A program made the translations under genes and the position numbers. From positions 1 through 37,367 of IMG/VR virus record IMGVR_UViG_3300020459_000033: a stretch of 37,367 nucleotides of DNA; one strand, written 5' to 3'. Below, piece after piece: positions 987 to 29,457 of this stretch; the first letter of the stretch is position 1, and each line of letters begins with the position of its first letter. The stretch comes from a virus. The notes below the pieces were generated by a model that was not told where the DNA came from, ran no database searches, and saw nothing but the letters and a program-made list of their open reading frames with translations.

Positions 987-989
987 ATC

Positions 990-1023: not shown

Positions 1024-1104
1024 TAATTCCAATGGATCCCCTAAGCTATAAACGACCCAATCCGACCTTTCGATATCACGATAATCAAATTTTTTTTTCT
1101 CATA

Positions 1105-1110: not shown

Positions 1111-1131
1111 TTCGACACAGGATTCGATAAT

Positions 1132-1305: not shown

Positions 1306-1465
1306 TCCAACGTATCACATATACTTAAAGAACAATTGTTTGTTTAAAGATTTAACTGAATGGGAGTTTAATATTATATGGAGACGGATATACAAGTCGT
1401 ATTTTACAGAAGATTTAACATATGAAAAGTTAAGCGAACCTGAGATGGTCGATGCATCATATTGA
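1298..1465 (+). CDS. Small hypothetical protein
   Basis: A 55-aa acidic/aromatic protein beginning MTNPTYHIYLKNNCLF. The start ATG at 1298 overlaps the end of the AbrB-like gene by 8 bases. An in-frame ATG at 1268 would add 10 residues but would lie deep inside the upstream gene, so 1298 is preferred. The pattern YHIYLKNNCLFKDLTEWEFNIIW looks like a small alpha/beta protein and resembles unnamed short proteins of cyanophages, but I recognise no domain. The stop TGA at 1463-1465 lies inside the -35 box of the next promoter, so the two transcription units abut exactly. Confidence 0.6.
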   Translation: MTNPTYHIYLKNNCLFKDLTEWEFNIIWRRIYKSYFTEDLTYEKLSEPEMVDASY

Positions 1466-1490
1466 CAATCGCTATATAAAATGATATAAT
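1462..1490 (+). promoter_or_regulatory. Perfect consensus sigma-70 promoter
   Basis: TTGACA at 1462-1467, spacer of exactly 17 bp, TATAAT at 1485-1490. Start of transcription is predicted near 1497, about 16 bases before the ATG at 1513. Both hexamers and the spacer match the bacterial housekeeping consensus with no mismatch, as in strong early promoters of T4-like phages. Confidence 0.85.
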
Positions 1491-1512
1491 TGAAGTGTAA
1501 TTACAACACGTT

Positions 1513-2274: not shown

Positions 2275-2419
2275 TATTATAGTAAACGATAAGGTGGTAT
2301 TCTCTAGTCTATCTCAAATGGAAATGTTTGAGAGACTAGAAGACCTCTCGATAGAATTCTATCAGACAGGTACACCGCATCCTAATCAAATTAGAACTGA
2401 AATTATTACGGAGGATTAA
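2252..2419 (+). CDS. Small hypothetical protein conserved in cyanophages
   Basis: A 55-aa acidic protein, MKKQELYNIIVNDKVVF..., ending EIITED. It starts 23 bases inside the glycosyltransferase gene in another frame. The pattern ELYNIIVNDKVVFSSLSQ, then MFERLEDLSIEFYQTGTP, then IRTEII matches short proteins I have seen in cyanophage genomes at the same kind of place. The start overlap and immediate abutment to the next ATG suggest coupled translation. No function is assigned. Confidence 0.65.
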   Translation: MKKQELYNIIVNDKVVFSSLSQMEMFERLEDLSIEFYQTGTPHPNQIRTEIITED

Positions 2420-2572
2420 ATGCCAGTAAGAACTAAGACAGGTTCATGGGGTTCGCAAGAATTTATTGAACAAACGCCGAAGAAATCTCGACAAGGAAAC
2501 GGCAAGCATTCAAAATATTCAGCAACATCCCGTAACTCGTCTCGAAAGAAGTATAGAGGACAAGGAAAATAA
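2420..2572 (+). CDS. Small very basic protein conserved in cyanophages
   Basis: A 50-aa protein rich in K, R, S, Q and G: MPVRTKTGSWGSQEFIEQTP, then lysine/arginine-rich sequence ending KKYRGQGK. The start is firmly set by GGAGG at 2410-2414, five bases upstream, and the ATG directly follows the previous stop. It lacks any hydrophobic core and is likely disordered and nucleic-acid binding (inference). It resembles a short conserved protein of T4-like cyanophages. It is the last gene before a strong terminator. Confidence 0.65.
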   Translation: MPVRTKTGSWGSQEFIEQTPKKSRQGNGKHSKYSATSRNSSRKKYRGQGK

Positions 2573-2575
2573 CTT

Positions 2576-2602
2576 AAGCGTCTCGAAAGGGACGCTTTTT
2601 TA
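2576..2602 (+). terminator. Intrinsic terminator with GAAA tetraloop
   Basis: Stem AGCGTCTC (2577-2584), loop GAAA (2585-2588), stem GGGACGCT (2589-2596) with one T-G wobble, followed by five T (2597-2601). The stop of the basic protein is four bases upstream. It closes the early-type unit ahead of the late operon. Confidence 0.9.
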
Positions 2603-2642
2603 ATGCTAAATATTTTGATCTATGATTATTCCTAATAATAGG

Positions 2643-2650
2643 TATAAATA
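2643..2650 (+). promoter_or_regulatory. T4-type late promoter (TATAAATA)
   Basis: A perfect T4 late box, 34 bases before the gp25 ATG, lying just after the terminator. The T4 late consensus is recognised by the gp55 sigma factor with the sliding clamp. Start is predicted near 2656. Confidence 0.85.
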
Positions 2651-2684
2651 TATTAAGAAAACTGTTTATTATTTCTAATTTAAA

Positions 2685-3083
2685 ATGAAAACAAGGATAT
2701 CTAGGTCATTTAAAGATATTAGTTTGTCCTTTAAGGCACATCCAATAACAAAAGATATTGGGGCTATTAAGAACGAAGATGCAATTAAAAAATCTGTAAG
2801 GAACTTAGTTCAAACTATTCCGAGAGAAAGATATTTTAATTCTATCTTAGGTAGTGATGTTGCTGGTCTTTTATTTGATTTTGTAGATTTTGGTACTGCA
2901 TCCAATATTGATCGTCAAATACAAACAACAATCACTAACTTTGAACCAAGAGTTGAAAATTTAGATATAGAAGTAATACCCAGACCAGATGATAATGCAT
3001 TTGAAGTTATCATTCATTATGACATCATCGGACAACAGTTTCCTACACAAGAGTTTTCCTTTATATTAGAAGCCACAAGATAA
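2685..3083 (+). CDS. 25: Baseplate wedge subunit gp25
   Basis: 132 aa, the same length as T4 gp25. GPW/gp25 lysozyme-like fold: N-terminal KDISLSFKAHPITKDIG, then AIKKSVRNLVQTIPRERYF (the family's conserved TxxxER/PRE segment), then GSDVAGLLFDFVD and a C-terminal strand pair with FEVIIHYDI. gp25 caps the first sheath ring onto the baseplate wedge and works with gp6 and gp53. It is the first gene behind the late promoter and is followed one base later by gp6. No Shine-Dalgarno is obvious. No gp53 gene is visible nearby. Confidence 0.93.
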   Translation: MKTRISRSFKDISLSFKAHPITKDIGAIKNEDAIKKSVRNLVQTIPRERYFNSILGSDVAGLLFDFVDFGTASNIDRQIQTTITNFEPRVENLDIEVIPRPDDNAFEVIIHYDIIGQQFPTQEFSFILEATR

Positions 3084-3084
3084 T

Positions 3085-5043
3085 ATGCCTATTACTAAAT
3101 TTACCAATCTAGATTTTGATCAAATAAAATCTTCAATAAAGAGTTATCTTCGGGCAAATTCAGACTTTACTGATTTTGATTTTGAAGGATCTAATTTATC
3201 AATGCTAATTGATACCTTAGCATATAACACTTATATTACAGCATTTAACTCAAATATGGTTGTAAATGAATCTTTTCTAGATTCAGCATCTGTAAGAGAG
3301 AATGTTGTTTCATTGGCACGAAATATTGGTTATGTACCACGGTCTAAAACCTCTGCACAGGCATCTATTTCGTTTGATATTAGAACTGATACCAAATATG
3401 ATTCAATAACGTTAAAGGCGGGTTTAATATGTGCTGGAAAAACAGATGACAGTTCTTTTGTATTCTCTATTCCTGATAATATAGAAAGAACTGCAGTGGT
3501 TGAATATGATACATCTACTGGACAAGAAATAGATAGAAAGCATCAATTTACAGGTATAACAGTATATCAGGGAATATATGTCACTAAAACATTTGAAGTT
3601 GATGGTTCATTAGACCAAAGATTTATATTGGATAATATGGGTATTGATACTTCTACTTTAGTTGTATATGTCAATAACTATGAGAATAATAGATTGGTAG
3701 ATAGTGTAGGAAGAGGTTCTTTATACAGAAAAGTTGATAATATTTTAAATATTGATAAAAATTCTGAAATATATTTAATACAAGAGGTGCAAGATGAAAA
3801 ATATGAACTTTTATTTGGTGATGGTTACTTTGGTAAGAAATTAGAGAACGGTTCTATCATTACAATCAGTTATATTCTTACTGATGGTGCCTCTGGAAAC
3901 GGTCCTGGTGGTTCTTCTGGGTCAAAAGGTGTATTTGTATTCTCTGGTAGTTTATCAAACCCTTCTGGTGCCATTGTTGCACCTAGTAGGGCACCTGAAA
4001 TTGAAACAATTAATAGGGCAAGTAATGGTGGTGAGATAGAATCTATTGATTCAATTAAGTATTATGCTCCTAGATTGTATTCTTCACAGTATAGGGCAGT
4101 TACGGGAAGAGATTATGAAGCAATAATACAGCAAATTTACCCAAATACTGAAAGTGTTTCTGTTGTTGGTGGTGAAGAGGTAGATCCACCCCAATTTGGA
4201 ACAGTTTTTATCACAATTAAACCAAAAAATGGTGAATTTGTTTCTGATTTTGATAAAACACAAATACTTTCTAACTTAAAAAACTATTCTTTAACAGGAA
4301 TTAACCAAAAAATCTTAGATCTTAAGATATTATACATTGAACTTGAATCTTATGTTTATTATAACGATTCTAAAGTCCAAAATATCAATGATTTGCAATC
4401 AAGAGTGTCAAATAACCTCAAAAAATACTCAAATTCGCTAGATCTTAATAAATTTGGTGGAAGATTTAGATATAGTAAAGTTTTAAGTGTAATTGACAAC
4501 ATTGATGACTCAATAACATCAAATATTACAAGAGTACGGATTAGAAGGAACTTAAATGCTCTTATAAATCAATTTGCACAGTATGAATTGTGTTTTGGTA
4601 ACCAATTTAACGTCAAAAAAGAAGGACTTAACATTAAAAGTACTGGATTTAGGATATCTGGTTCAAATGATGTTGTTTATTTGACAGATACTCCAAATGA
4701 AGATGAAAAAACTGGCATAATATCAATTGTTAAACCAGATCTTATAGATTCTTCAAAGACTGTTGTTGTTGAAGAAGCAGGAACGGTTGATTATGTTAAA
4801 GGTGAAATAATTTTAACCACAATCAATATAACATCAACTAATTTGGCAAATAATATTATAGAAGTTCAAGCATTTCCAGAGTCTAATGATGTTATAGGTC
4901 TTCAAGATTTATACCTTCAATTTTCCATCGGAAGTAGTTCAATAAATATGGTTAAGGACACTATTACTTCTGGACAGCAAATATCTGGAGTTGGGTTTAA
5001 AGTTACCTCAAGCTATACAAACGGAGCATTAATAAGGGCATGA
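3085..5043 (+). CDS. 6: Baseplate wedge subunit gp6
   Basis: 652 aa, against about 660 in T4 gp6. The N-terminus has LDFDQIKSSIKSYLRANSDF, then FEGSNLSMLIDTLAYNTYI and NESFLDSASVRENVVSLARN, the hallmark of gp6/gpJ-like baseplate proteins. Residues of about 90-300 are beta-rich and contain FGDGYFGKKLENGS. A further conserved segment, YYAPRLYSSQYRAVTGRDYEAI, lies about 330-352. The C-terminus ends in beta-rich sequence. In T4, gp6 dimers with gp7 form the core of each wedge and the inner ring of the baseplate. The stop overlaps the gp7 start (ATGA), so translation is probably coupled. Confidence 0.93.
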   Translation: MPITKFTNLDFDQIKSSIKSYLRANSDFTDFDFEGSNLSMLIDTLAYNTYITAFNSNMVVNESFLDSASVRENVVSLARNIGYVPRSKTSAQASISFDIRTDTKYDSITLKAGLICAGKTDDSSFVFSIPDNIERTAVVEYDTSTGQEIDRKHQFTGITVYQGIYVTKTFEVDGSLDQRFILDNMGIDTSTLVVYVNNYENNRLVDSVGRGSLYRKVDNILNIDKNSEIYLIQEVQDEKYELLFGDGYFGKKLENGSIITISYILTDGASGNGPGGSSGSKGVFVFSGSLSNPSGAIVAPSRAPEIETINRASNGGEIESIDSIKYYAPRLYSSQYRAVTGRDYEAIIQQIYPNTESVSVVGGEEVDPPQFGTVFITIKPKNGEFVSDFDKTQILSNLKNYSLTGINQKILDLKILYIELESYVYYNDSKVQNINDLQSRVSNNLKKYSNSLDLNKFGGRFRYSKVLSVIDNIDDSITSNITRVRIRRNLNALINQFAQYELCFGNQFNVKKEGLNIKSTGFRISGSNDVVYLTDTPNEDEKTGIISIVKPDLIDSSKTVVVEEAGTVDYVKGEIILTTINITSTNLANNIIEVQAFPESNDVIGLQDLYLQFSIGSSSINMVKDTITSGQQISGVGFKVTSSYTNGALIRA

Positions 5044-8000
5044 TAACGACTGGTATTGATAAAAGAATTCAAGTACAACAAATTGTTGATAATCAACTTC
5101 CTGAATTTGTATTAAGTGAAAGTCCAAAGACAGTAGACTTTTTAAAACAGTACTACATTTCTCAGGAATATCGTGGTGGTCCGATTGATATTACTGATAA
5201 TTTAGATCAATATTTAAAATTAGATAATTTAACACCTGATGTTATAGTTGGTGTAACAACACTTGCTGAAACAAATCAGGATCCTGAAAATATAAAGGTA
5301 GGTATTGCTATAACTGCTTGGGGTAAGTACTATACTGGTGAGAAAACTATTAATGTTAGTAATACAAAAGGATTTCCTAATGAATATGGACTTTTAAAGA
5401 TTGATGATGAGATTATTACATATACTGGTAAAACATCTACTAGTTTTACTGGTTGTGTTCGTGGATTTAGTGGAATAACAACATATCATGATGATAATAA
5501 TCCAAGAGAATTAGTTTTTTCAACTTCTAGTGCAGAAATTCATAATATCGGATCTTCTGTTTCTAATCTTAGTGCTTTATTTTTACAAGAATTTTATAAA
5601 AAACTTAAATATACATTAACTCCTGGATTAGAAAACAGTGATTTTATATCTGATCTTGATGTTAATAATTTTATAAAAGAAGCAAAGTCATTTTTCCAGT
5701 CAAAAGGTACTGAACAGTCTTTTAAAATCCTTTTTAAAGTATTATATGGAGTAGATCCTACAATAATTGATCTTGAAGATTATTTAATTAAACCATCAGC
5801 TGCAAAGTATATTAGACGTGAAAGAATTGTTGCTGAAAGAATATCTGGAAATCCAATAAATTTACAAGGACAAACTGTTAGTAGGTCTGCTGATCTCAAT
5901 ACTACAGCGTCTATATCCGAAGTTGAACCTGTTTTAGGTGTTCCAGGATCAGGAATTCTTTCTGATTCTGATTATTTTATTTTAGATGCATTTATCGGAT
6001 ATGCTGATGAAGAATATGTTACTGGAACCTTTAATATTCCAGGTAAAACAAAGGTAATTGGTAATGTGCCAAAAGATTCAACTATTATTACAGTAGATTC
6101 TACTGTTGGTTTTGGCACTACTGGTACAATTATATCGGGTATTAACACTAATATTCAATATACTGATAAAACTGTAAACCAATTTTTAAATTGTTCTGGT
6201 GTTGATAATCCAATTTCTTCTGAAGATGATATAAGATTTGATGATAATATTTTTGGATACGAAAATGGAGATTTAACAAAGAAAGTAGAATTGAGAATTA
6301 CTGGAATTTTATCTAAATTTATTCCAAATGAAAATAATAGACTATCAATAGAAAAAGAGAGAGTTCTTATTAAAAGTCTTGGGGAAAATATTAAAAAGGG
6401 TAGTACAAATAAGGAAATATTTGCTAATTCGTGGATTTATAATTCATCTCCATCATATGATATAAATTCTGAAAGTATAATAGATAGAGGATCTAGTACT
6501 CTAACATTAAAAGAAGATATTTCAAGTGATAATTTTGATACTACAGGACTATCTACGGGTGATTATGTTGAAGTTATTGAAAAAACATTTAATCCTTTTA
6601 AGAATAAATCAGTTGTTACACCATCAAATCCAGGTGGAGTATCACCTGCTGAAATTTTCGATATTTCAACTGGTAATATAATTAAATTGATTAATGTAGA
6701 ATATAATTTAGAACGCACAAAAAATTATGCTGTAAGAAAGGTTTTAGATAAAGTATCAAGTACTGGTGCACCTGTTAAGTATGGAAATCAATTAACAACA
6801 AATATTCAGAATGTTTACAATGAATCGGATACTAATTTATATGTTGCGTCTAATTCGTTACCAAACTATACAATTACTAAAGATATTGTAAAATCAGAGA
6901 TTCCTATTGCTGATACATCAACAATACAAAATTATAATCCTATAACTGAAAAATATTCTGTAATATCTTTCGATAAAGATGTTTTATTTGTTACTGGAGA
7001 TGAAGTATATTATAGTGTACCAGAAGGTAAGGCAACATTGGTTGGATTAGAAGAAGGTGTATATTATGTTAAAGAATATCCAGGTGATAGACAAAAAATT
7101 AATTTATACTTATCACCTTCTTTTATTGAAACAGATGAACTTTTATCTAGATCTGGAGGGACTCCTAATAATTTTGTAGAATTTAATATACCATTAACTA
7201 ATAATGACAAACATACCTTTACTTTACTAAAACATTATAATCAGGAAATAGGTAATCAACGATTATTAAAGAAATTTCCAGTAGATTTATCTTTAAATGA
7301 CGGTAAAAATACTGAAACTATTCCTGGACCTGTTGGAATGTTGATTGATGGTGTAGAAATTAATAATTATAAGTCATCAGACAGTATTTTTTATGGACCA
7401 ATAGATAAAGTTTCTGTTTTAAGTTCAGGAAGTGGTTATGATGTAATTAATTTGCCTGAAATTTCAATTGCTGCTGGTTTAGGTTCTACTGCATTAGTTA
7501 AACCTGTTGTTACTGGAGATATTCAAGAAATTTTAGTAGATCCTCAAAATTTTGATATTGAAAGTGTAAATTCAATAAAAATTAGTGGTGGTAATAGTAG
7601 TGAAACTTTTTTAAGACCTATTGTTAGAAAAAGAAATAGAGAAATAGAATTTGATGGAAGATTGGCTACTGCTAATGGTGGGGTTGATAATCAAGCAGAA
7701 ACGATAACATTTAAAGAAAATCATAATTTAAAGAATGGACAAGTATTGGTTTATAATAAAAATAGAAATGATCAATTAGGGATTACTACATGGGGTGGAA
7801 GTAATGCTGATGCTTATGACACTTTAATTGATGGAGAAACATATTGGCCAGTAGTAGTTGGATTAAGCACAATTAAATTATTTGGTAGTGAAGATGATTA
7901 TATTAGTGGTATTAATACCATAGCATTTACATCCATAGCAAAATCTGGTATTCATAAGTTTAGACTTAAAAATGCTAAAAATACATTAAAGTCTGTTGAA

Positions 8001-11000
8001 ATTATATCTTCGGGCAGTTCATTTATAAATCGTCAAGTATATATTAATCCAACTGGAATTTCTACGGTAAATTCTTCTGCTTCCTTTAATAATCATGGTT
8101 TTTCTGATGGGGAATTGATTAGTTATACAACTGCTGCTGGAATTGGTTCTACAATTCCCACATCTATTAGTGGTTTATCAACTTCAATTCAATATAAGAT
8201 TATTAAATTAGATGATAATTCTTTCAGAATTTGTGATGCTGGAATTGGTGGAACGTCAAATGTAAATTATAATAATAAGGATTATGTTAAATTTGGATCA
8301 ACAGGAACTGGATATCAAGTATTTAAGTATCCAGATATTGAAATTACATCAAAAATTACATATTCTATTTCAACATCAGATAAAGTAACTTTAACTCCTA
8401 TTATTAAAGGTAAATTAAATGATTTAATACTTTATGAAAAGGGATCTTCATATGGTTCTCAAACAGTTATAAATTATCAAAATAATCCAGATATTATTGT
8501 AAAAGTTGGAAATAGTAGAGTCGGAACAAATATTCAACCAGCATTGCAACCAATTATATCTAATGGTAAAATAATTAAGGTTAATATTCAGAATGGTGGA
8601 GGAGAATATTATTCAATTCCTGATTTAAAAGTTGTTGGTGATGGGAATACTGCAAAGATAAGACCAATAATTGATACTAATCCAAATTCAAAAACTTACT
8701 TATCTATTATTGATGTAAAAATTATTAATGGTGGGGCTGGATTTACTACAAGTAAAACATCTATTAATGTTATACCATCTGGGTCTAATGCAGTGTTTGG
8801 GTTAGATATTAGAAAATTAAGTATAAACAATATAGAAAAATATGGTAGTGAGATATTAGAAGAATCTCAAAATGGATTAAGATATTCTGTAGTTGGATAT
8901 TCTACGGATATTGGTCGTAATTTTTATAATGATCCCAATCCTAATACTAATCATTCTTCAATTATTGGATGGGCTTATGATGGTAATCCCATATATGGTC
9001 CTTATGGTTATAGTGATCCTACTAAATTAGGTCCAAATATTAAGACTTTACAACCAAGTTATAAATTAGATCCTTCTAAGGTTATTGATAGACCTGGTAT
9101 TACTACATTTGCATCTGGATTTTTTGCAGATGATTATGTATATGATCCTACTATTGGTGATCTAGATGAACATAATGGAAGATATTGTAAAACTCCAGAT
9201 TATCCTGATGGAGTATATGCTTATTTTGTAGGAATATCAGATATTGATCAGTCTCCAAAATTCCCATATTTCATTGGAAATACTTATAGATCATCTGCTG
9301 ATGTTCTTGACCCAGAATCTAATATAACACAATCCTTTGATTTTAATAATTCAAATTTAGTTAGAAATACTGCATCATATAAGATGATTTCTGAATTTAC
9401 AAATAATGATTTTATTGTAGATTCGGATAAATTAATCCCACAATTAACAACTGTTGAATCAGTAACTCGTGGATCTGTAGATTCCTTAGATATTGTTAAT
9501 TCAGGTGAAAACTATAAAATAGGGGATAATATAACATTTGATAATACAAATACTAGCGGATCTGGATTGAGTGTTGCTGTTAATTCAATATCTGGTGTAC
9601 CAATAACTAATATTGAGACAATATATGAAGAATATGCAAATGTAAAATTGGTATGGAAGAATTCTAATACAGTATCTGCATCTATTTCAACATTTCATGA
9701 TTTATCTACTGGTAATAGTATTGAAATTTCTGGTATATCTAGTGATCTTAAGTCAGTTACAGGATCTCATACTATTGGTGTTAATAGTGAATCTACACTT
9801 TTATATCAACAATGTATTGCAAATCCATCATCATTAGGTATTGTAACAGATATTGTTGTTGGTAGAACATCTGATTTAATTTCTGTTGGTAGTAGTATTG
9901 GTATTGGTTCAGAAAGATTCTTTGTGCTTAATAAGTTTGAGGATAGGAATATATTAAGATGTGTTAGAGGTATTACTGGTACTGCACATACAATTTCTTC
10001 AAAAGTCACATTAATTCCAAATTCATTTGATATACCAGTAAAAACTGATTATTTTGATTCAAGATTGAATAAGATTGTATTTTTTAATCCAAAACAGTCA
10101 GTTGGAATTGCAACCGTTGCTGGATTTTCAACTTCAATAACTGTTACAGTTGCTGGTATGAATAAAACAGTATCTGTACCTGCTCAGAGCATATATCTTC
10201 CAGATCATGGATTTAAAACGGGAGATAAATTGATCTTTAAGGAACCTTCAAATGTTGGATTTACTAATATCGGTGTATCTACTAATGGAGTTGCTGGTGG
10301 TAATGTTACCAGTATTGGTCATGATGATATTGTATATGCTATTAATAAGTCTAAGGATTATATAGGAATTGTTACTAATGTTGCTGAGATTGGATCTGGA
10401 ATTGGAACTATTGGTCAAAGTTCTGGATTATATTTTATTGGTGATGCTGATAATGATTTTAGATACTCATTTAGAACACAATATAACCAAGTAACTGCTA
10501 CCGCAGAAAAAATTATAGCAACTGTTTCACTTTCTACTGATCATCAATTACAAGAGCAAGATAGGATTAGTTTAGAAGTTAAACCAAGAGATTCTGTTGG
10601 TATTGGAACTTCTACTGCAATTAAAGTCAAATATAATAGTATTAAAAATAAATTATTAATTAATCCTATTGGATTTAATTCTACTGGAGTTAATACTACT
10701 ACAAATACATTAACTATTAATTCTCATGGATTAAAAACTGGAGATAAAGTATTATATGATAATATTGGTGTTGGTCAAACTATTGTTGGTGGTTTAAGTA
10801 CTACTGGATATTTTGTTTATAGAATAGATGATAATAATATTAAATTATCAAATACGTATATTCAATCTACAAAAGTTCCTCCTGATGTGGTATCTTTAAG
10901 TAATAAGGGTGGTATTTCCCATGAGTTATCTTTAATTAATCCTCCAATCAATATTATAAAAGATAATAATTTAGTATTTGATGTTTCAGATTCTTCATTG

Positions 11001-14000
11001 TCTGGATATGATTTTAATTTATATTATGATAATAATTATATTGATAATTTTGTATCTACTGGTCAAACAAATAGTTATATTGTATCAAAAGTTGGGACAT
11101 CTGGAACAACTGGTTCTACTGTAACATTAAATTATTCTGATAGTAATCCATTAAATTTATTCTATAATATAGAAAAAGGTGGATTTATAAGTACATCTGA
11201 TATTGATGTTATCGATAAATCAAGAATTTCTTATATTGATAGTAAGTATAAAAATAATTATTCAATTTTAGGTGTTACCAGCACTTCATTTAAGATTGTA
11301 TTAGAAGATAAGCCAGAAATTCTTGGATATGCTTCAACTACTATAGGAGTAGGAACTATAACATATAGTACTGATTCTATAAGAGCTCGTGGTCCAATTA
11401 ATGATGTTAAAATTAATTCTGGTGGAGAAGGGTACAAACAATTACCTACATTTGTAAGTATTGCTTCAACTCAGGGAAAAAATGCTATTATTTTACCAAG
11501 ATCTAAAAATGCAAATAAAATTAATAATACTAATATATTAAATGTTGGATTTGAGTATGCTTCTGATAAAACTTTATTACCACTAGCAAAAGTATCTCCT
11601 GTAACATCATTAAGAAATTTTGATACGATTAAAGCAGTAACTATAACTGATGGTGGTTCTGGATATCAATCTAATCCTAAATTAGTTGTTGTTGATGAAG
11701 ATACTAGACAAGTTATTGAATCTGGTGCTTTGGAAGCAATTATAAGTTCATCAACTCAATCAATTGAGAATGTTAATGTATTATCCGAACCAAAAGGTAT
11801 TGGTAATGCTTTAATATATGCAATTGATGGTACAAATGGTGTTTCAATTACTAATGTTTCTATTGGTTCATCTCAACCTGATAGTACAACAACGGGTATT
11901 GTAACATTTGTTTTAGGTACACCTGTACTTGGATTTAGTGAAACTCCATTTGCAGTAGGGGATGCAGTATTTGTTGAGAATATACAAAATATTGATAATG
12001 GTGGAAGTACTATTAATTCTCCAAGTAATGAATTTAGAACTTATCCAGTAACAAAAATTAATTCAACAAATCCATTTGAATTAGAAATTAATGTAAATGG
12101 TATTTCGACAAATCCTGGATTTGCAAAATCAGAACAAATTTTTGCAAGTTTAGTTAATTATAATAAGTATCCTAAATTTACTATAACTAAAGAATCTACG
12201 GGATTTATTGAAGGGGAAGATATATTAGTAGATATAAATGGTTTATTTGTTAATAAGAAACTTATTTTAGATAAAATTGGTAATGATTATATAAAGATAT
12301 TAGGTAAATATGATTTACAAATTGATGATAAAATTAAAGGTGCAACAAGTGGTACTGTTGCTACTATCAATACCTTATTTGAAAATAAGGGATATTTTAC
12401 AGTAGATTATTCTTCTAGAAGAGATATTGGATGGCTTGATAACATTGGAAAATTGGATCAAGATTATCAAGTACTTCCTGATAATGATTATTATCAAAAT
12501 CTATCTTATACTATTCAAAGTCCAATTGAATATAAAGAATTGATTGATCCTGTAAATAGATTAGTTCATACGACTGGTCTTAAGAATTTTGCAGATATTG
12601 GAATTAGTTCTAGTACTAATTCTGGATTAACCACAGCAGTAGATGCTTCAACTATAGTTCGTGATTTTCTTAGTGATAATAGGGTAGATGCTATTAATGG
12701 ATTTGATATGGTTAGGGATATTGATATTCTTAGAAATCCATTAAGATCAAAATATATTCAATTTAAAAATAAAGAGTTAGTAAATTATTTTAAATGCAAA
12801 ACTAATAGAGTTCTAGAAATAGATAATATTAATACTTTATTTACAAATGCAACAAATAATGCCAGTCAAACTGGAGATATTGTGTTAGCGAATGGTTATG
12901 ATAGATTTTTGATTCAAGTTAGAAATCCAGAAAATAATGATATTCAATGTTCAGAACTTGTTACTTCAATAGATTATAATAGTAATGATGTATATACTAT
13001 TGAAAGAGGTTCAATATCAAATACTGGTATTTCTACTCTTAAAGATGATGTTTACAGAAGTCTTACAGATGTTATAGGAGTTTATGATGATGGATATAAA
13101 CTACAATTCTTACCAACTAATACGTTTGATATAGATCTTGATATTAAAATCTTCCAAAATTCGTTTAATTCTATAAGCGGTGATATTACTACTGGAATTG
13201 GAACAACTAGTTTTGGGTTTGCAGAACTAACTGGTATTGGTGCAGAAATTGGTTCTGGTACTACTGTTACACTTACTTCAGGTAATGTAGCAAATATAGA
13301 ATCATATTTTGTATCTGCTGAGTTAAGAGATACTACTACTTTTGAGAATCAAATTGTTGATCTTTATATAACTCATGATGGAACAAATTCTTATATTGCT
13401 AATTATGATTTAGATATAAACAATGATAGTGGTATTGGTACTTTCTCTTCAAAAATAGATTCTAATGTTTTATCCTTAGAATATACAAATGATAGATCTA
13501 ATGCAATTGAAGTTAGATCTAAAATAGTAGGTTTTGGTACTACTGCTTCTGGTATTGGAACTTATAGGTTTAAGTCTACAGAACAGCCAGATGGAAGTGA
13601 AGATTCTATAAGGATACAGTCTGAATTTACAAATGTAGCATTAGGAGCAACTACAACTATTGCTCAATTTAGTAAAACAAAAGATACTACTGTTAAGAGT
13701 ATAATAAGAACTTCAATAGGAAATACTAGTTCTGTGCATCAATTATTGATGATTCATGATGGAACTAATACATTTATTGAACAGTATCCATTTATCTCTA
13801 TCGGTAATGATATTGGAATAGGTACTTTCTCTTCAAGTATAAATGGATCTAACTTTAATTTAATCTTTACACCAAATACAGAGTTTTATGGTGGTGGTAA
13901 TATAGAAGTTCAAATTTTTAGTGAAATATTTAATACTAATATTGATACTATTAACACACCTTCAATTCTTACTTACGGAAAATCTATTGATTCATTATCA

Positions 14001-17000
14001 CTATTACAATTTGATGGGACAAATAGTATTAGAGGAAATACCAATGCCTTTAAATTAAGATATAAAAATACTCCAATTTTTGGAAAGTATTTTAATCCAA
14101 ATTCTAGTGCTTTAGAATCTTCTACTGGAAGGTTTACTATGAAGAATCATTTCTTTAATAACAATGAAAAATTAGTTTATACTCCAGGATCTTCAATTGA
14201 TAGTATTGGAATTTCATCACTTATAATGACTGGTGGAAACCCATTACCAAAAGTAGTTTATTGTATAAAGAATGATACTGATAGATTCCAAGTATCAATT
14301 ACATCGGGTGGTTCACCAATAACATTCTCTGGATTAGGTGCTGGTAATTATCATAGATTTGAAATGGATAAGAAAAATGAGAAGAGTTTTATTGTTCTAG
14401 ACGATATTATTCAATCACCTTTGGCATATACTCCAATTAAACAATCTCTTACTGGTAATGTTAGTGGTCAAGTCTCTATATCAACATCAGTACTTTCTCT
14501 TTCTGGTATTTCTACAATAGCTATTAATGATATTTTAAAAATTGATGATGAATATGTAAAGATAACTAATGTGGGTATAGGAACTACTAATGTTGGTCCT
14601 ATATCACCTTCTGGATCTTTAAAACTTGTCGAAGTTGAAAGGGGATTTGTTGGAACATCTGCATCTACTCATACAGACACTACTGATGTAAGATTATTTA
14701 AAGGTGGTTATAATATTATTGGAGATACGATTTATTTTAGCGAGACACCTCGTGGAAATAATGAAATAGCAAAAAGTGAATCTAATAGAAATAGTGGTAG
14801 AGCAAACTTTAGTGGAAGAGTTTATTTAAGACAAGATTATTCTTCTAATGTAATATTTGATGATATATCATCACAATTTACGGGAATAGGAAGAACATTT
14901 GTAATAACTTCAAGTGGTATTAATACAATTGGTCTTACAACAGGAAGTACCTTAATGACTGTTAATGGTTTCTTCCAAAAACCAACTACTGAAAATAACT
15001 TAGGTAATAATTATACATTTGATGGAAATGAGGCAGTAGGAATTACTAGTATTGTATACACTGGTATTAGTTCAAATAATGGAACAATTATTGTAAGTGA
15101 TATTGATGTTAATCAAAACCAACTTCCTAGATCTGGTGAAATCATTTCAATAGCATCTACTGGTGGATTAGGTATAGCACCTTTGGTTGGAGCAGCAGTA
15201 ACAGCAGTTATTGGCACTGGTAAATCTATTGTATCTGTTGGTTTAGGATCTGAGGATTTCAATGGATCTGGATATAGTTCTGGATTAAGTACAACTGGAG
15301 ATGGTTTAATATCAATTGGAATAACAGATGCTGCATATGATCATAAATTTGAGAGTGCTGTTACAAATTCTGTAACAGTCTCTGGAAATGGTATTGGTGC
15401 TGCCAGTGCAACATTTACACCTATGGATGTTTCATACATCTCACGTACAGGGGTTCTAGTGTTGACGAAAAATGCTCATGATCTTATTACATCTGATTCA
15501 CATCAAGCAACTACTGGAACCCAATATGATGGTACTGTTGGTATTATGACAGTTAAGTTAGCATCTACACCTAGTCCTGCTCTTGCAGATGGTCAGTTAG
15601 TTAAAATTGATGATCTTGGAGTTAAGTTTAAATGTGCTTTGGATTCTAATGCTACTGATCATGATTATCCAAGAGAAGGTGATCCTATAAGTGGTAAATT
15701 TGTTCCAATTTCTAATGTAAGTGGTGGAGATACATTTGAAATAACTGTATTAGACTATGTTCCATCATCTAATACTAGTGTTCATACTTTTGTATCTGGT
15801 GTTGCTGGTGCTATTAAGAGATCTGCTAATACCTTATCAATTGCTAACAGTGGTTTAGTGTTTAGATGTTCAAAGGATGGATACGCAACTGATCATCCAT
15901 ATCCACGTGCTGGTATTGATCCTGTTGCTGGAGTATCTACTGCAATTGTAGAGGCAACATCAAATAGTATTACTGTTAATGTTGGATCTGGTGGTGGAGT
16001 TGGAACTGGAGCATCAATCAGAGCATCTGTTGGTGTTGGAGGAACTTTAACCTTTGAAGTTGTTACTGGGGGAAGTGGATATGTTAATCCTATTATCATG
16101 CCACCTTCTCCATCATATGAGAATCTTGAAATAATTGGAGTATCTAAATTATCAACTGGTTCAACTACTCAAACTGGAAGTGGAACATTAATATCTCTTG
16201 ATGTTGGATCCGTTTCAACAACTGGAATAGGATCAACTTTATATGAAGTTAAATCTTTTGAAATAACAAGAAAGGGTTATGGATTTGAAAAAGGAGATGT
16301 ATTTAGACCAATATTTGATGGTGAAATTCCAAATAAGGTTGGAATAGTTACTGATAAAGGACTTCCATCAATGTTGAATAATTTTGAAATTACTGTTGAT
16401 AGTATATACACTGACAATTTCTCATTAGTCAATTTTGGTGAATTTGATTATCTAGATTCAATTCAAACTCTTCAAAATGGAAGTAGAACTAGATTCCCAT
16501 TAAAGTTTGATGGTGAGTTAGTTACATTTAAAACAGATTCCAGAGATGTAGATTCTCAATTAATTGAAATAAGATCTTTATTATTAATATTCATTAATGG
16601 TGTTGTACAGGTTCCAGGAGAATCTTATCTATATGATGGTGGAACAAGTTTTGTATTTACAGAACCACCAGATGAATTTGATAATGTTTCTCTTTTCTTC
16701 TATAAAGGAACAAATAATGTAGATATTGAATATACTGATATTATAGAAACTATAAAAACTGGTGATGAACTTCAAATTCTTAAAGATCCTAATAATAAAA
16801 TATTAGATCAAGAAAAAAGAACAGTTCTAGGAATAACTACATCTGATGTTGTTGAATCAAATTTATATTTTGATGTTGGTATTAATGAGGATTTTGATAG
16901 ACCTGTAATTTGGACTAAACAAAAACGTGATAAGGTTATTAATGGTGAAATGGTATATAAGTCTAGACGATCAATTGAACCATTAATATTCCCACAATCT

Positions 17001-17933
17001 AAAATAATTTCTGGATTAACAACAACTTCTACTGAACTTTTTGTAGATAACTTAAATTTATTTAATTATGAACTTGACTCACCTCTAAGTGCAAATGCAT
17101 TAATTGTTGATAATTCACAAACTTTAGCGGGTGCTTCTCTTACTGCTGTTGTGTCTGCTACTGGTACTGTTAGCTCTATTTCAGTTGTTGATGGTGGTTC
17201 AGGTTATGTTGGGGCAACAATTGCTGTTTCAATTGGAATACCAACAACTGGAACGCCTATATCAAGTGTTAGTCTTAATCCTATTGCCCTTGGAACTGCA
17301 AATATTACTGCTGGAATTATTACTAGTGTTACTGTCACAAATCCTGGATTAGGATATACTAGATCAAATCCACCACAAGTTATTGCACCAATACCAACAG
17401 CACCAAAAGAAGTTATTAGTGGTATTGCTAATACTTCTGGATTTACTGGAATAGTTACTGGAATAACAACAACTGGTGGAACCTCAGGTAATCCATTAGC
17501 ATTAAAATTCTTTATCAATAGACCAGATGGTGAGGCATGTACTCCATTATCTAATGGATATCCAATTCATATTTTTGATACTTCGGTTGGATCTGGAGTA
17601 ACTTCTATTGATAGTGGAAATGATGCGGTAGTTGGAATAGGAACTACTTATTTGGATAATGTTTATTATGTTCGTTCAGTTGCAATTACTGCCAATAGAG
17701 CAGAATTTGTAGCAAATGTTGATTCTGGTTCTGATGTTATTGGAATTGGAACAACTGGAATTGGATGTGGTAAATTCTCTTGGGGTAGATTATCTGGATT
17801 TACTAGATCATCAGAACCAATATCTATTGCAGTAACTGGAAAAACAGTTAATACTGGATTCACAACTTATCCAACTATACAAAGAAGGAAAGCTGGGTTT
17901 AGAGGCACTGGTGCAATAGACACTAAATTATAG
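5040..17933 (+). CDS. 7: Giant gp7-type baseplate wedge protein (4297 aa)
   Basis: The slot directly after gp6 and before gp8 is that of T4 gp7 (1032 aa), but this protein is four times longer. The anchor to gp7 is at about residues 210-265: SFFQSKGTEQSFKILFKVLY and following, close to the C-terminal SKGxExSxKFLFKVLY region of T4 gp7. It begins QIVDNQLPEFVLSESPKTVDF, which looks like a conserved wedge-docking segment. The rest is beta-rich and mosaic. A DDEI...RG module is at about 103-150 and again near 1600 and 3150. GGSGY-type repeats lie between 793 and 4120. A YHYH domain is at about 1281-1418. HDGTN repeats are near 2760 and 2890, and ATDH-YPR repeats near 3530 and 3608. A NDYYQNLSYTIQSPIEYKEL segment is about 2475-2495. 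The C-terminus (FSWGRLSGFTRS...) looks conserved. No transmembrane segment is seen. Confidence 0.85.
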   Translation: MITTGIDKRIQVQQIVDNQLPEFVLSESPKTVDFLKQYYISQEYRGGPIDITDNLDQYLKLDNLTPDVIVGVTTLAETNQDPENIKVGIAITAWGKYYTGEKTINVSNTKGFPNEYGLLKIDDEIITYTGKTSTSFTGCVRGFSGITTYHDDNNPRELVFSTSSAEIHNIGSSVSNLSALFLQEFYKKLKYTLTPGLENSDFISDLDVNNFIKEAKSFFQSKGTEQSFKILFKVLYGVDPTIIDLEDYLIKPSAAKYIRRERIVAERISGNPINLQGQTVSRSADLNTTASISEVEPVLGVPGSGILSDSDYFILDAFIGYADEEYVTGTFNIPGKTKVIGNVPKDSTIITVDSTVGFGTTGTIISGINTNIQYTDKTVNQFLNCSGVDNPISSEDDIRFDDNIFGYENGDLTKKVELRITGILSKFIPNENNRLSIEKERVLIKSLGENIKKGSTNKEIFANSWIYNSSPSYDINSESIIDRGSSTLTLKEDISSDNFDTTGLSTGDYVEVIEKTFNPFKNKSVVTPSNPGGVSPAEIFDISTGNIIKLINVEYNLERTKNYAVRKVLDKVSSTGAPVKYGNQLTTNIQNVYNESDTNLYVASNSLPNYTITKDIVKSEIPIADTSTIQNYNPITEKYSVISFDKDVLFVTGDEVYYSVPEGKATLVGLEEGVYYVKEYPGDRQKINLYLSPSFIETDELLSRSGGTPNNFVEFNIPLTNNDKHTFTLLKHYNQEIGNQRLLKKFPVDLSLNDGKNTETIPGPVGMLIDGVEINNYKSSDSIFYGPIDKVSVLSSGSGYDVINLPEISIAAGLGSTALVKPVVTGDIQEILVDPQNFDIESVNSIKISGGNSSETFLRPIVRKRNREIEFDGRLATANGGVDNQAETITFKENHNLKNGQVLVYNKNRNDQLGITTWGGSNADAYDTLIDGETYWPVVVGLSTIKLFGSEDDYISGINTIAFTSIAKSGIHKFRLKNAKNTLKSVEIISSGSSFINRQVYINPTGISTVNSSASFNNHGFSDGELISYTTAAGIGSTIPTSISGLSTSIQYKIIKLDDNSFRICDAGIGGTSNVNYNNKDYVKFGSTGTGYQVFKYPDIEITSKITYSISTSDKVTLTPIIKGKLNDLILYEKGSSYGSQTVINYQNNPDIIVKVGNSRVGTNIQPALQPIISNGKIIKVNIQNGGGEYYSIPDLKVVGDGNTAKIRPIIDTNPNSKTYLSIIDVKIINGGAGFTTSKTSINVIPSGSNAVFGLDIRKLSINNIEKYGSEILEESQNGLRYSVVGYSTDIGRNFYNDPNPNTNHSSIIGWAYDGNPIYGPYGYSDPTKLGPNIKTLQPSYKLDPSKVIDRPGITTFASGFFADDYVYDPTIGDLDEHNGRYCKTPDYPDGVYAYFVGISDIDQSPKFPYFIGNTYRSSADVLDPESNITQSFDFNNSNLVRNTASYKMISEFTNNDFIVDSDKLIPQLTTVESVTRGSVDSLDIVNSGENYKIGDNITFDNTNTSGSGLSVAVNSISGVPITNIETIYEEYANVKLVWKNSNTVSASISTFHDLSTGNSIEISGISSDLKSVTGSHTIGVNSESTLLYQQCIANPSSLGIVTDIVVGRTSDLISVGSSIGIGSERFFVLNKFEDRNILRCVRGITGTAHTISSKVTLIPNSFDIPVKTDYFDSRLNKIVFFNPKQSVGIATVAGFSTSITVTVAGMNKTVSVPAQSIYLPDHGFKTGDKLIFKEPSNVGFTNIGVSTNGVAGGNVTSIGHDDIVYAINKSKDYIGIVTNVAEIGSGIGTIGQSSGLYFIGDADNDFRYSFRTQYNQVTATAEKIIATVSLSTDHQLQEQDRISLEVKPRDSVGIGTSTAIKVKYNSIKNKLLINPIGFNSTGVNTTTNTLTINSHGLKTGDKVLYDNIGVGQTIVGGLSTTGYFVYRIDDNNIKLSNTYIQSTKVPPDVVSLSNKGGISHELSLINPPINIIKDNNLVFDVSDSSLSGYDFNLYYDNNYIDNFVSTGQTNSYIVSKVGTSGTTGSTVTLNYSDSNPLNLFYNIEKGGFISTSDIDVIDKSRISYIDSKYKNNYSILGVTSTSFKIVLEDKPEILGYASTTIGVGTITYSTDSIRARGPINDVKINSGGEGYKQLPTFVSIASTQGKNAIILPRSKNANKINNTNILNVGFEYASDKTLLPLAKVSPVTSLRNFDTIKAVTITDGGSGYQSNPKLVVVDEDTRQVIESGALEAIISSSTQSIENVNVLSEPKGIGNALIYAIDGTNGVSITNVSIGSSQPDSTTTGIVTFVLGTPVLGFSETPFAVGDAVFVENIQNIDNGGSTINSPSNEFRTYPVTKINSTNPFELEINVNGISTNPGFAKSEQIFASLVNYNKYPKFTITKESTGFIEGEDILVDINGLFVNKKLILDKIGNDYIKILGKYDLQIDDKIKGATSGTVATINTLFENKGYFTVDYSSRRDIGWLDNIGKLDQDYQVLPDNDYYQNLSYTIQSPIEYKELIDPVNRLVHTTGLKNFADIGISSSTNSGLTTAVDASTIVRDFLSDNRVDAINGFDMVRDIDILRNPLRSKYIQFKNKELVNYFKCKTNRVLEIDNINTLFTNATNNASQTGDIVLANGYDRFLIQVRNPENNDIQCSELVTSIDYNSNDVYTIERGSISNTGISTLKDDVYRSLTDVIGVYDDGYKLQFLPTNTFDIDLDIKIFQNSFNSISGDITTGIGTTSFGFAELTGIGAEIGSGTTVTLTSGNVANIESYFVSAELRDTTTFENQIVDLYITHDGTNSYIANYDLDINNDSGIGTFSSKIDSNVLSLEYTNDRSNAIEVRSKIVGFGTTASGIGTYRFKSTEQPDGSEDSIRIQSEFTNVALGATTTIAQFSKTKDTTVKSIIRTSIGNTSSVHQLLMIHDGTNTFIEQYPFISIGNDIGIGTFSSSINGSNFNLIFTPNTEFYGGGNIEVQIFSEIFNTNIDTINTPSILTYGKSIDSLSLLQFDGTNSIRGNTNAFKLRYKNTPIFGKYFNPNSSALESSTGRFTMKNHFFNNNEKLVYTPGSSIDSIGISSLIMTGGNPLPKVVYCIKNDTDRFQVSITSGGSPITFSGLGAGNYHRFEMDKKNEKSFIVLDDIIQSPLAYTPIKQSLTGNVSGQVSISTSVLSLSGISTIAINDILKIDDEYVKITNVGIGTTNVGPISPSGSLKLVEVERGFVGTSASTHTDTTDVRLFKGGYNIIGDTIYFSETPRGNNEIAKSESNRNSGRANFSGRVYLRQDYSSNVIFDDISSQFTGIGRTFVITSSGINTIGLTTGSTLMTVNGFFQKPTTENNLGNNYTFDGNEAVGITSIVYTGISSNNGTIIVSDIDVNQNQLPRSGEIISIASTGGLGIAPLVGAAVTAVIGTGKSIVSVGLGSEDFNGSGYSSGLSTTGDGLISIGITDAAYDHKFESAVTNSVTVSGNGIGAASATFTPMDVSYISRTGVLVLTKNAHDLITSDSHQATTGTQYDGTVGIMTVKLASTPSPALADGQLVKIDDLGVKFKCALDSNATDHDYPREGDPISGKFVPISNVSGGDTFEITVLDYVPSSNTSVHTFVSGVAGAIKRSANTLSIANSGLVFRCSKDGYATDHPYPRAGIDPVAGVSTAIVEATSNSITVNVGSGGGVGTGASIRASVGVGGTLTFEVVTGGSGYVNPIIMPPSPSYENLEIIGVSKLSTGSTTQTGSGTLISLDVGSVSTTGIGSTLYEVKSFEITRKGYGFEKGDVFRPIFDGEIPNKVGIVTDKGLPSMLNNFEITVDSIYTDNFSLVNFGEFDYLDSIQTLQNGSRTRFPLKFDGELVTFKTDSRDVDSQLIEIRSLLLIFINGVVQVPGESYLYDGGTSFVFTEPPDEFDNVSLFFYKGTNNVDIEYTDIIETIKTGDELQILKDPNNKILDQEKRTVLGITTSDVVESNLYFDVGINEDFDRPVIWTKQKRDKVINGEMVYKSRRSIEPLIFPQSKIISGLTTTSTELFVDNLNLFNYELDSPLSANALIVDNSQTLAGASLTAVVSATGTVSSISVVDGGSGYVGATIAVSIGIPTTGTPISSVSLNPIALGTANITAGIITSVTVTNPGLGYTRSNPPQVIAPIPTAPKEVISGIANTSGFTGIVTGITTTGGTSGNPLALKFFINRPDGEACTPLSNGYPIHIFDTSVGSGVTSIDSGNDAVVGIGTTYLDNVYYVRSVAITANRAEFVANVDSGSDVIGIGTTGIGCGKFSWGRLSGFTRSSEPISIAVTGKTVNTGFTTYPTIQRRKAGFRGTGAIDTKL
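8880..9293 (+). other. YHYH domain embedded in gp7
   Basis: Within gp7 (about residues 1281-1418). Core: HSSIIGWAYDGNPIYGPYGY, followed after about 50 residues by NGRYCKTPDYPDGVYAYFV and then FPYFIGNTYR. These are the defining blocks of the YHYH family (PF14240 as I recall it), found in secreted and surface proteins of marine bacteria and phages. Function is not established. Confidence 0.8.
13345..13930 (+). repeat. Two diverged HDGTN repeats inside gp7
   Basis: Two copies about 125 codons apart (13374 on and 13752 on). Each has HDGTN, a tyrosine-containing strand, a D-x-GIGTFSS turn, a further strand, and a segment ending near IEV. The DNA still shares GGTACTTTCTCTTCAA exactly. This indicates an internal duplication of a beta-sandwich-like unit. 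Confidence 0.75.
15619..15975 (+). repeat. Two ATDH-YPR repeats inside gp7
   Basis: Copies about 80 codons apart: FKCALDSNATDHDYPREGDP and FRCSKDGYATDHPYPRAGID. Shared positions are F-x-C-x2-D-x2-ATDH-x-YPR and then a strand (EITV / ITVNVG). Similar motifs occur in other marine phage structural proteins; function unknown. Confidence 0.75.
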
Positions 17934-17941
17934 TATAAATA
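17934..17941 (+). promoter_or_regulatory. T4-type late promoter (TATAAATA) before gp8
   Basis: A perfect TATAAATA directly after the gp7 stop TAG (17931-17933), 20 bases before the gp8 ATG. It gives gp8 and downstream genes transcription independent of the 12.9-kb gp7 gene. Confidence 0.85.
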
Positions 17942-17961
17942 AAGAAAAAAAGCTATAGAAG

Positions 17962-19584
17962 ATGGCGGCAATTGTAACAGATCAGTTTAGAATCAATAAT
18001 GCTAGTAATTTTTTGGGAGATATTAACGATCCCTCAAATTCTTATTATGTGTTTGTGGGTTTGTCAAATCCTGGTATAGGAAATGCATATGGTAGAACTG
18101 CAGATCCAGCCACATGGAATTCTGATAATTCCAGACCAAATCCAACTGATAACTTTAATTATTTAAATCATACCAAAGATACAATGATTTTTGGTAAGAA
18201 AGTTAATATAGATAATGCTAGAAGAGTTATTAGAAAAGAAACTTGGACTAAAGGAACTCAATATGAAATGTATCGCCATGATTATAGTATAGATAATCAA
18301 TCACCAAAAACATTTTCTTCTAGATTATATGATGCAAAATATTATGTAATTAATAAAGATTTTAGCGTTTATATTTGTATTGATAACGGTTCCTCAGGAA
18401 TTAATACTACGGGAAATCTTTCTCAGAATGAACCACTCTTTACTGGATTAGAACCATCTGCTGCGTCGGGAGATACTGATGATGGGTATGTATGGAAATA
18501 CTTGTTTACTGTTGCTCCAAGTGATATTATAAAATTTGATGCAACTGAATATATACCTTTACCAAATAATTGGTCAACTTCTACTGATGCTCAAATACAA
18601 TCTGTAAGAGATAGTGGAAATGCTGATATTAATAATAATCAAATTAAAAAGGTTTATATTGATACAAAAGGCAGTTCATATTCTGGTGGATTAGGGCAAG
18701 AATTTAATATTGTTGGTGATGGTGAAGGAGCAAAGGTCATTGTTGATGTTGAAGGAACTCAAATAACTAAAACACAAGTTTCCGTTGGTGGTAAAGGATA
18801 TACTTATGGTATGGTTGATTTAACTAACATTTCAGAGAGTGCAATAAGTTCTAATACTCCTGCGAAATTAATCCCCATTATTCCACCATCAAAAGGACAT
18901 GGATATGATTTATATAAAGAATTGGGCACAGATAGAGTTTTAATTTATGCTAGATTTGATGACTCTACAAAAGATTTTCCTTTAGATGCTAAATTTGCAC
19001 AAATTGGAATAGTTAAAAATCCTACGTCAATTGGATCAACAGCTTTATTCACACAAAATCAATTTTCTTCAGTATCTTCATTATATCTCAGTAATTATCC
19101 AACAACTTCTATTGAAATTGGGTCAGAGATTACTCAGGAAATACAATCTGGTGGAGTAGAAATTGGTAAAGCAAAAGGTTATGTTGTTTCGTTTGATATT
19201 ATTTCAGATAGCCCTAAAATTGCTGTTTTAAAATATTATCAAGATAGATCATTATATTTTAATCAAACTACTGGTGATCAGACAGATACCTCTGGTATAA
19301 GTAGTCTTGGTTCTACTAGTAGTGGAAAAATCTATCAGTTCCAACCTAACGGATTACAAGTTTCCGTTGGTAGTACTACAGTTACTATTAATACTAATTT
19401 TTCTGGTATTACTACAAACCCAACTGGTAATAAAGTTATTGAACTTGGTACTCAGTTCACAGATGGCATCTCAAGTTCTGAGATAAATAATCAGTCGGGT
19501 GATATTATCTATTTGGATAATAGAGCCTTAATCACAAGAGATAAGAGACAAAAAGAAGACATTAAAGTTATCCTGGAATTCTAA
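17962..19584 (+). CDS. 8: Baseplate wedge subunit gp8
   Basis: 540 aa, longer than T4 gp8 (334 aa). The N-terminal AAIVTDQFRINNASNFLGD parallels the AIVTSKFR opening of T4 gp8. DDGYVWKYLFTVAPSDI (about 173-189) matches the conserved GDGYVWEYLF block. The C-terminus SGDIIYLDNRALITRDKRQK, then EDIKVILEF, matches the T4 end SGEMIYMENRPPI...INILFTF. The extra length lies in the middle (about 225-490) and contains GGSGY-type repeats (KGSSYSGG, GGKGYTYG) and beta-rich sequence. In T4, gp8 dimers attach to gp7 and gp6 in the wedge. An enlarged gp8 beside an enlarged gp7 suggests that the whole wedge periphery is bigger here. Confidence 0.9.
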   Translation: MAAIVTDQFRINNASNFLGDINDPSNSYYVFVGLSNPGIGNAYGRTADPATWNSDNSRPNPTDNFNYLNHTKDTMIFGKKVNIDNARRVIRKETWTKGTQYEMYRHDYSIDNQSPKTFSSRLYDAKYYVINKDFSVYICIDNGSSGINTTGNLSQNEPLFTGLEPSAASGDTDDGYVWKYLFTVAPSDIIKFDATEYIPLPNNWSTSTDAQIQSVRDSGNADINNNQIKKVYIDTKGSSYSGGLGQEFNIVGDGEGAKVIVDVEGTQITKTQVSVGGKGYTYGMVDLTNISESAISSNTPAKLIPIIPPSKGHGYDLYKELGTDRVLIYARFDDSTKDFPLDAKFAQIGIVKNPTSIGSTALFTQNQFSSVSSLYLSNYPTTSIEIGSEITQEIQSGGVEIGKAKGYVVSFDIISDSPKIAVLKYYQDRSLYFNQTTGDQTDTSGISSLGSTSSGKIYQFQPNGLQVSVGSTTVTINTNFSGITTNPTGNKVIELGTQFTDGISSSEINNQSGDIIYLDNRALITRDKRQKEDIKVILEF

Positions 19585-19589
19585 TCAAC

Positions 19590-29451: not shown

Positions 29452-29457
29452 TAAAAT

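Follow-up and report, generated by a model that had tools for sequence, protein, structure and literature searches.

A giant open reading frame between gp6 and gp8

In the viral record IMGVR_UViG_3300020459_000033 of IMG/VR (hereafter the window, meaning the whole stretch of 37,367 nucleotides that was analyzed), the slot between the baseplate genes gp6 and gp8 is filled by one open reading frame of 4,297 codons. This locus raises two questions: is the product really a homolog of T4 gp7 and, if so, where in the protein are the additional thousands of residues? The frame (5040..17933, plus strand) runs from an ATG to a stop codon with no internal stops, and the window contains no N letters. It accounts for 12,894 of the 37,367 bases (34.5%), in agreement with the original prediction that it takes up more than a third of the window. 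Since T4 gp7 has 1,032 residues, the description of the protein as four times the T4 size was also correct.

The PHROG_2885 profile ('baseplate wedge subunit') matched the protein end to end in a single stretch, with profile positions 2–4178 of 4179 aligned to residues 2–4283 (3,488 bits). Immediately upstream lies gp6, the predicted wedge partner of gp7 (3085..5043, plus strand; PHROG_219, 638 bits; Pfam Gp6-like_1st), the 3′ end of which overlaps the start of the giant gene by 4 bases; gp25 (2685–3083; PHROG_261) precedes it. Downstream is the baseplate wedge gene gp8 (17962..19584, plus strand; PHROG_438, 495 bits; Pfam Phage-Gp8). With both flanks identified by PHROG and Pfam profiles, the predicted placement of a single open frame in the gp6–gp8 slot holds. 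The gene order of the window is gp25, gp6, giant gp7, gp8, a VrlC-type gene and two small tail genes, followed by neck and terminase genes (gp13-type, gp14-type and gp15-type neck and tail proteins, and the small and large terminase subunits).

Several other features of the window deserve mention. A PHROG_1574 protein weakly similar to glycosyltransferases is encoded at 1513–2274, and a 2OG-Fe(II) oxygenase at 35594–36199, directly behind the terminase large subunit. A 516-residue protein with a GTG start (32394–33944) has a DUF6321 domain at its end and no assigned function; the DNA around it is strongly skewed, with an excess of A relative to T and of G relative to C. The VrlC-type protein after gp8 (19590–26837; PHROG_358, Pfam DUF4815) has 2,415 residues, and its residues 2009–2085 resemble a small β-module at gp7 residues 92–169. 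A GGxGY-type β-module recurs in gp7 (five stretches), gp8, VrlC and the gp14-type neck protein (29458–30891), which suggests that some modules are common to several tail proteins.

Could the long frame have arisen from an assembly error? One IMG/VR contig (L168) is 99.4% identical to the window DNA over 10,473 alignment columns (window 13547–24019), and two more show 91.6% identity over 16,526 columns (L169) and 90.9% over 16,580 columns (L170), both covering window positions ~7468–24024. A complete relative of 4,298 residues (L087) spans the entire giant gp7 gene. From 148 examined IMG/VR loci, only those with a complete gp7 ORF accompanied by both gp6 and gp8 were kept. This left 31 contigs, in all of which a single ORF encodes gp7, with 3,957–4,541 residues; the remaining loci failed the slot filter, in most cases presumably because the contig or the fetched stretch ended too early. 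The fusion of two genes by misassembly, an artifact that the original prediction had itself considered, was therefore rejected. It is contradicted by the 31 intact slots, by independent contigs agreeing at the DNA level, by isolate genomes and by the end-to-end PHROG_2885 match, and we regard its probability as negligible.

The giant protein is a homolog of gp7

A single-sequence phmmer search with the whole protein against PDB was uninformative, returning two chance-level matches, neither of them gp7, so profiles were needed. The profile of residues 1–309, built from 18 marine members with T4 excluded, produced just two matches at E ≤ 10 among 177,635 PDB sequences. Both were T4-type gp7 (E = 3.3e-5 and 9.7e-5). 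HHalign placed window residues 211–303 on T4 gp7 residues 727–813 with a probability of 94%. Moreover, the profile of a helical core block covering residues 171–261 (block 1) scored 26.7 bits against T4 gp7, compared with 6.2 bits for the best of 1,000 shuffles. By the PDB profile, hhalign and the shuffle control alike, the helical core motif of T4 gp7 (residues 729–758) is present in the window protein.

The Pfam family Baseplate_wedge (PF23786) matched residues 205–239 with an E-value of 4e-4 at 20.4 bits, below the curated gathering score of 27, and it matched 16 of the 18 aligned members at E ≤ 0.1. Compact gp7 proteins of pf16, Cr30, phiM7 and Melnitz-1 pass the cut-off, and that of S-CRM01 falls just short of it. 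In Melnitz-1 gp7, which has matches in three Pelagibacter phage records, residues 13–226 correspond to PF23786 positions 9–221. The original prediction had put a gp7-type anchor near residues 210–265 and had proposed that a lack of gp7 profile similarity there would speak against it. The searches did find such similarity, in the form of the sub-threshold PF23786 match and the profile match to T4 gp7 727–813. The Pfam domains Gp7_helical, Gp7_6th and fn3, all of which match T4 gp7, gave nothing in the window protein at E ≤ 1, implying that it is a gp7 homolog and not a member of the T4 subfamily of gp7; Gp7_5th did not match either.

The AlphaFold2 model of residues 1–640 had a mean pLDDT of 62 and a pTM of 0.30. 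Within it, the domain formed by residues 252–425 could be superimposed by VIA-align on T4 gp7 residues 760–844 (5iv5_BJ; Z = 7.4, 83 residues, rmsd 2.8 Å), and the KP1-type gp7 (9f4a_A0) matched the same domain with Z = 7.0. A Z-score of 7.4 was also reached by unrelated, common β-barrels, so that the fold match is only supporting, though its position agrees with the sequence alignments. Foldseek found no match for the N-terminal model at E ≤ 0.001, and T4 gp7 was absent among the best 50 matches listed. Taken together, the position in the slot, the hhalign result and a profile that retrieved only T4-type gp7 from PDB confirmed, at the level of sequence comparison, that the giant ORF encodes a gp7 homolog.

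The gp7 core is split into two blocks

When the giant was compared with short gp7 proteins occupying the corresponding slot, two separate matching blocks emerged. The protein starts with a helical core part (residues ~1–50; 5040..5189, plus strand; predicted helices 5–19 and 29–44) that aligns with the start of the compact gp7 proteins matching PF23786. Next comes block 1 (5550..5822, plus strand), which holds the anchor and produced the hhalign match and the PDB hits (E of about 3e-5 and 1e-4). Behind it, a β-domain (residues ~252–430; 5793..6329, plus strand) stands at the place of T4 gp7 domain V, to judge from its modest VIA-align match. Block 2 appears only at residues 2477–2529 (12468..12626, plus strand; YYQ..SY.I.S ... 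VNR..H..G..F).

The block-2 profile matched gp7 of pf16, Cr30, phiM7, Melnitz-1 and S-CRM01 at 34–73 bits. In T4 gp7 (residues ~865–892) it reached a weak 10.2 bits, a score exceeded by one of 1,000 shuffles, and against PDB it gave one chance match (E = 0.23) and did not find gp7. In S-CRM01, block 2 falls on PF23786 columns 227–278, just behind the block-1 columns 177–221; because the profile omits insertions, these columns show the order of the blocks and not their distance. Thus, as far as profiles can tell, block 1 is clearly shared with T4 gp7, and block 2 is clearly common to compact gp7 proteins, with a weak match in T4.

The spacing of the blocks differs greatly between proteins. T4 gp7 has 107 residues between the blocks and 140 after block 2, the value of 107 hanging on the weak block-2 match backed by order and position. 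The corresponding numbers are 241 and 104 in pf16, 388 and 218 in Melnitz-1, 552 and 40 in Cr30, 802 and 21 in phiM7, and 1,087 and 80 in S-CRM01. They rise to 2,138 and 433 in the first ORF of B23, 2,185 and 531 in S-SSM7 gp7a, 2,215 and 1,768 in the window protein, 2,227 and 2,665 in P-SSM2, 2,788 and 3,037 in S-SZBM1, 2,808 and 3,717 in P-SSM4, and 2,809 and 4,967 in P-RSM6. We also aligned 33 giants, consisting of 28 IMG/VR proteins, the window protein and four isolates; three near-duplicates as judged by length (L113, L126 and L135) were dropped, and B23 and S-SKS1, whose gp7 is spread over two and four ORFs, respectively, were kept outside the alignment. Both blocks are present in all 33, with 2,125–2,249 residues between them and 1,455–2,665 residues after block 2.

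The original prediction of a roughly 4,000-residue β-rich mosaic behind the anchor therefore needs revision: it overlooked block 2, the position of which means that some 2,200 residues form an insertion within the core and some 1,770 come after it. As shown by the alignment, the β-rich insertion that parts the blocks is nearly constant in length, and the extension varies in both length and content. In the window protein, the insertion as delimited by inter-block distances spans residues ~431–2476 (6330..12467, plus strand) and includes a YHYH domain (PF14240; residues 1297–1398; 8928..9233, plus strand; E = 1.4e-23), the DGxPx[YF]GP motif of which is found in 29 of the 33 aligned giants. A YHYH-type motif also occurs in S-SZBM1_207 (L207, 1634–3232), a separate 532-residue protein encoded downstream of the giant gp7 that matches window gp7 residues 1305–1421 at 42.7% identity.

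The C-terminal extension carries a variable cassette

The extension comprises residues 2530–4297 (12627..17930, plus strand). Part of it is matched by separate genes in the Synechococcus phages S-SSM7 and B23, in which a second gene (gp7b in S-SSM7) encodes the post-core material. These second genes match window residues 3187–4284 (S-SSM7) and 3004–4282 (B23), in pieces, indicating that the parts can exist apart. The small genes behind compact gp7 (Melnitz-1 161–163; S-CRM01 g6 and g7) showed no similarity to the extension at E ≤ 1e-3.

Close relatives differ in length mainly at residues ~3411–3650 (15270..15989, plus strand), where gaps in the 33-row alignment reach 53–68% over residues 3451–3650 and are mostly below 10% elsewhere. 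This variable cassette contains, in the window protein, two modules with an H-x-Y-P-R motif (at 3541 and 3619), the full pattern being F-x-C-x-x-D-x5-H-x-Y-P-R-x-x-D-P. Among 136 distinct module copies selected by H-x-Y-[P/T]-R, C at position −9 and D at position −6 were each conserved in 98%. The number of H-x-Y-P-R copies is 0–4 across 29 close relatives including the window, 12 of which have none; it is 5 in P-SSM2, 8 in P-SSM4 and 12 in P-RSM6, and S-SZBM1 has none. Copy number correlates with gene length (Spearman 0.78, n = 29, with kinship ignored). Among relatives of the same layout, the cassette is as similar as its flanks, and therefore modules appear to be gained and lost rather than to change fast. 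We accordingly dropped the idea of a fast-evolving receptor-binding patch, as only presence and copy number vary.

The cassette had no match in Pfam. AlphaFold2 modeled residues ~3440–3649 as β-domains with pLDDT mostly 80–94, and Foldseek detected the same fold in further predicted structures of cyanophage proteins, among them the S-SCSM1 long tail fiber protein (E = 1.9e-7, rmsd 1.5 Å, 111 columns) and the S-SSM7 baseplate wedge initiator. A Foldseek search of PDB with the cassette model gave no match at E ≤ 0.001. Using VIA-align, barrels of a ubiquitin-activating enzyme and of a phage endosialidase were tied at Z of 6–7.6, an uninformative result that leads us to make no claim of carbohydrate binding. 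By tblastn, the cassette was found in records annotated as tail fiber or short tail fiber proteins. In ACG-2014e (L205, 2212–12450), a 'short tail fiber' protein of ~4,075 residues (record positions 19130–31357) has a cassette match.

Giant gp7 proteins are common in marine cyanobacterial phages

Giant gp7 is already known and is common in marine cyanobacterial phages. The size that the original prediction regarded as exceptional is in fact ordinary for the group, in which P-SSM2 has a protein of 5,195 residues, S-SZBM1 of 6,619, P-SSM4 of 7,312 and P-RSM6 of 8,573. The P-SSM4 baseplate wedge initiator was named the largest bacterial-virus protein (PMC8553790). P-RSM6 gp7 (L208, 1–25722), which occupies the same slot beside gp6, is longer. 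Mass spectrometry of S-SZBM1 virions detected the 6,619-residue baseplate wedge initiator with 71 peptides (PMC9146016), and we found that this protein carries both core blocks. In S-CREM2, ORF122, which carries the annotation baseplate wedge protein, was represented by 91 unique virion peptides (PMC10665884).

Relatives of the giant gp7 were detected in 466 out of 50,697 phage records, and a collection of viral contigs contained at least 594 stretches with one, showing that the gene belongs to abundant marine viruses. The proteins of P-SSM2 and P-HM2 are annotated as gp7, and several giants are labeled either gp7 or 'baseplate wedge initiator'; other such genes are called 'virion structural protein' or 'hypothetical protein', or are unannotated. 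In S-SKS1 (L005, 16001–28387) four ORFs take up the gp7 slot, of which the first two carry no annotation, reflecting either a sequencing error or fission. An analysis of 26 T4-like genomes places gp7 in the non-cyanophage core, as one of its divergent components (PMC3037559). Our search for literature on a 'giant protein' in cyanophage baseplates found none, and among papers published since 2018, screened by title and the opening of the abstract, no cryo-EM structure of a T4-like cyanophage baseplate was evident.

What is new here is the placement of the extra length, that is, the two-block layout with a near-constant insertion and a variable extension. The two-block placement settles the identity of such variously labeled genes and locates their thousands of additional residues. 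The block boundaries can be used in cryo-EM modeling and in testing whether the wedge protein itself carries host-contact modules.

A model for giant gp7 and its alternatives

Our analysis makes it likely that the wedge protein gp7 encoded at 5040–17933 belongs to a marine T4-like phage of the Kyanoviridae type and is composed of a core, an insertion and an extension, with the periphery directed outward as originally proposed. By homology, the core would pair with two copies of gp6 in each of the six wedges, like (gp6)2–gp7 of T4. The insertion and the extension would project outward to make a peripheral baseplate platform, its modules fused into one chain rather than recruited as separate proteins. 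The extra length probably makes up an outer portion of the tail tip that faces the cell. Both the cassette and the YHYH modules would face outward; the H-x-Y-P-R modules, also seen in long tail fiber proteins, may lie on the surface and aid attachment or hold attachment proteins. Still more tentatively, gp7 of marine T4-like phages could be a single-chain peripheral baseplate, its core opened and prolonged at places resembling the spike-attachment sites of simple phages, with fiber-type modules gained and lost in the prolonged part. If so, gp7 length would form a graded series from ~500 to 8,600 residues. Receptor-facing domains would then be fused to the wedge that triggers the sheath, and cell contact could pass to the core within one polypeptide.

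How do other explanations fare? Conceivably, gp7 is absent, VrlC takes its place, and the ORF between gp6 and gp8 encodes a large adhesin or tail-fiber-type protein. PMC7029224 does state for pelagimyophages and cyanomyophages that T4 gp7 is absent and VrlC substitutes for it, a VrlC-type protein with DUF4815 is encoded downstream in the window, and the ORF bears YHYH and other surface-type modules. However, the N-terminal profile matches only T4-type gp7 in PDB, compact gp7 proteins of the same slot possess both blocks, and VrlC coexists with a gp7 homolog in the window and also in phiM7, which has both a 1,006-residue gp7 and an annotated VrlC. We consider this replacement very improbable; our results contradict the stated absence of gp7 for cyanophages and for the window. 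Post-translational cleavage of a polyprotein, yielding a gp7 core plus individual peripheral proteins, seems improbable as well. It would fit with S-SSM7 and B23 encoding the C-terminal part separately, but the S-SZBM1 product is listed as one protein of 724 kDa, although the peptides alone are compatible with cutting (PMC9146016).

A different possibility, which we think rather unlikely but take seriously, is that the additions serve as spacers or scaffolding, making the baseplate wider or stiffer, and take no direct part in recognizing the host. The near-constant insertion (2,125–2,249 residues in 33 of 33 giants) is what an architectural part would look like, the cassette evolves no faster than its flanks, and 12 of 29 giants do without any H-x-Y-P-R copy. 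On the other hand, cassette copies range from 0 to 12 between phages, more variation than one would expect of a purely architectural part, and the cassette fold is present in tail fiber proteins.

Comparison with known gp7 proteins

Among the closest known counterparts is P-SSM2 gp7 (YP_214343; 5,195 residues; PHROG_2885), likewise located between gp6 and gp8 and having both core blocks. Its identity to the window protein is 38.7% over window residues 2–3593 and 38.5% over 3450–4293. It is ~900 residues longer, with repeated cassette matches and five H-x-Y-P-R motifs versus two in the window protein. T4 gp7 (5IV5, 5HX2) shares with the window protein block 1, the place between gp6 and gp8 and, possibly, a weak block 2 and domain V. 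Only T4 gp7 has ~640 residues ahead of the core (fn3-like and other domains) and domain VI behind it, neither of which was detected in the window protein. Conversely, the ~2,200-residue insertion, the YHYH domain and the cassette are found only in the latter. As most of T4 gp7 (residues 1 to ~640) has no detected counterpart, the two proteins appear to share a small common core to which different additions have been made.

Compact gp7 proteins (pf16 gp212, 523 residues; Cr30, 767; Melnitz-1, 896; phiM7, 1,006; S-CRM01, 1,454) resemble the window protein in having both core blocks in the identical order and in their relation to PF23786. They differ in having 241–1,087 residues between the blocks compared with 2,215, and 21–218 after block 2 compared with 1,768. 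A smaller protein still, XM1 gp17 (242 residues), has been called an ortholog of T4 gp7 and forms a core bundle with two copies of gp16; in this simple phage, the tail spikes are held by an unresolved internal loop of gp17 together with its C-terminal segment (PMC10457771). Judging from this description, XM1 gp17 and the window gp7 have their additions in corresponding order, one within the core and one after it. Giant gp7 may therefore have grown at places comparable to the spike-holding loop and C-terminal segment of XM1 gp17.
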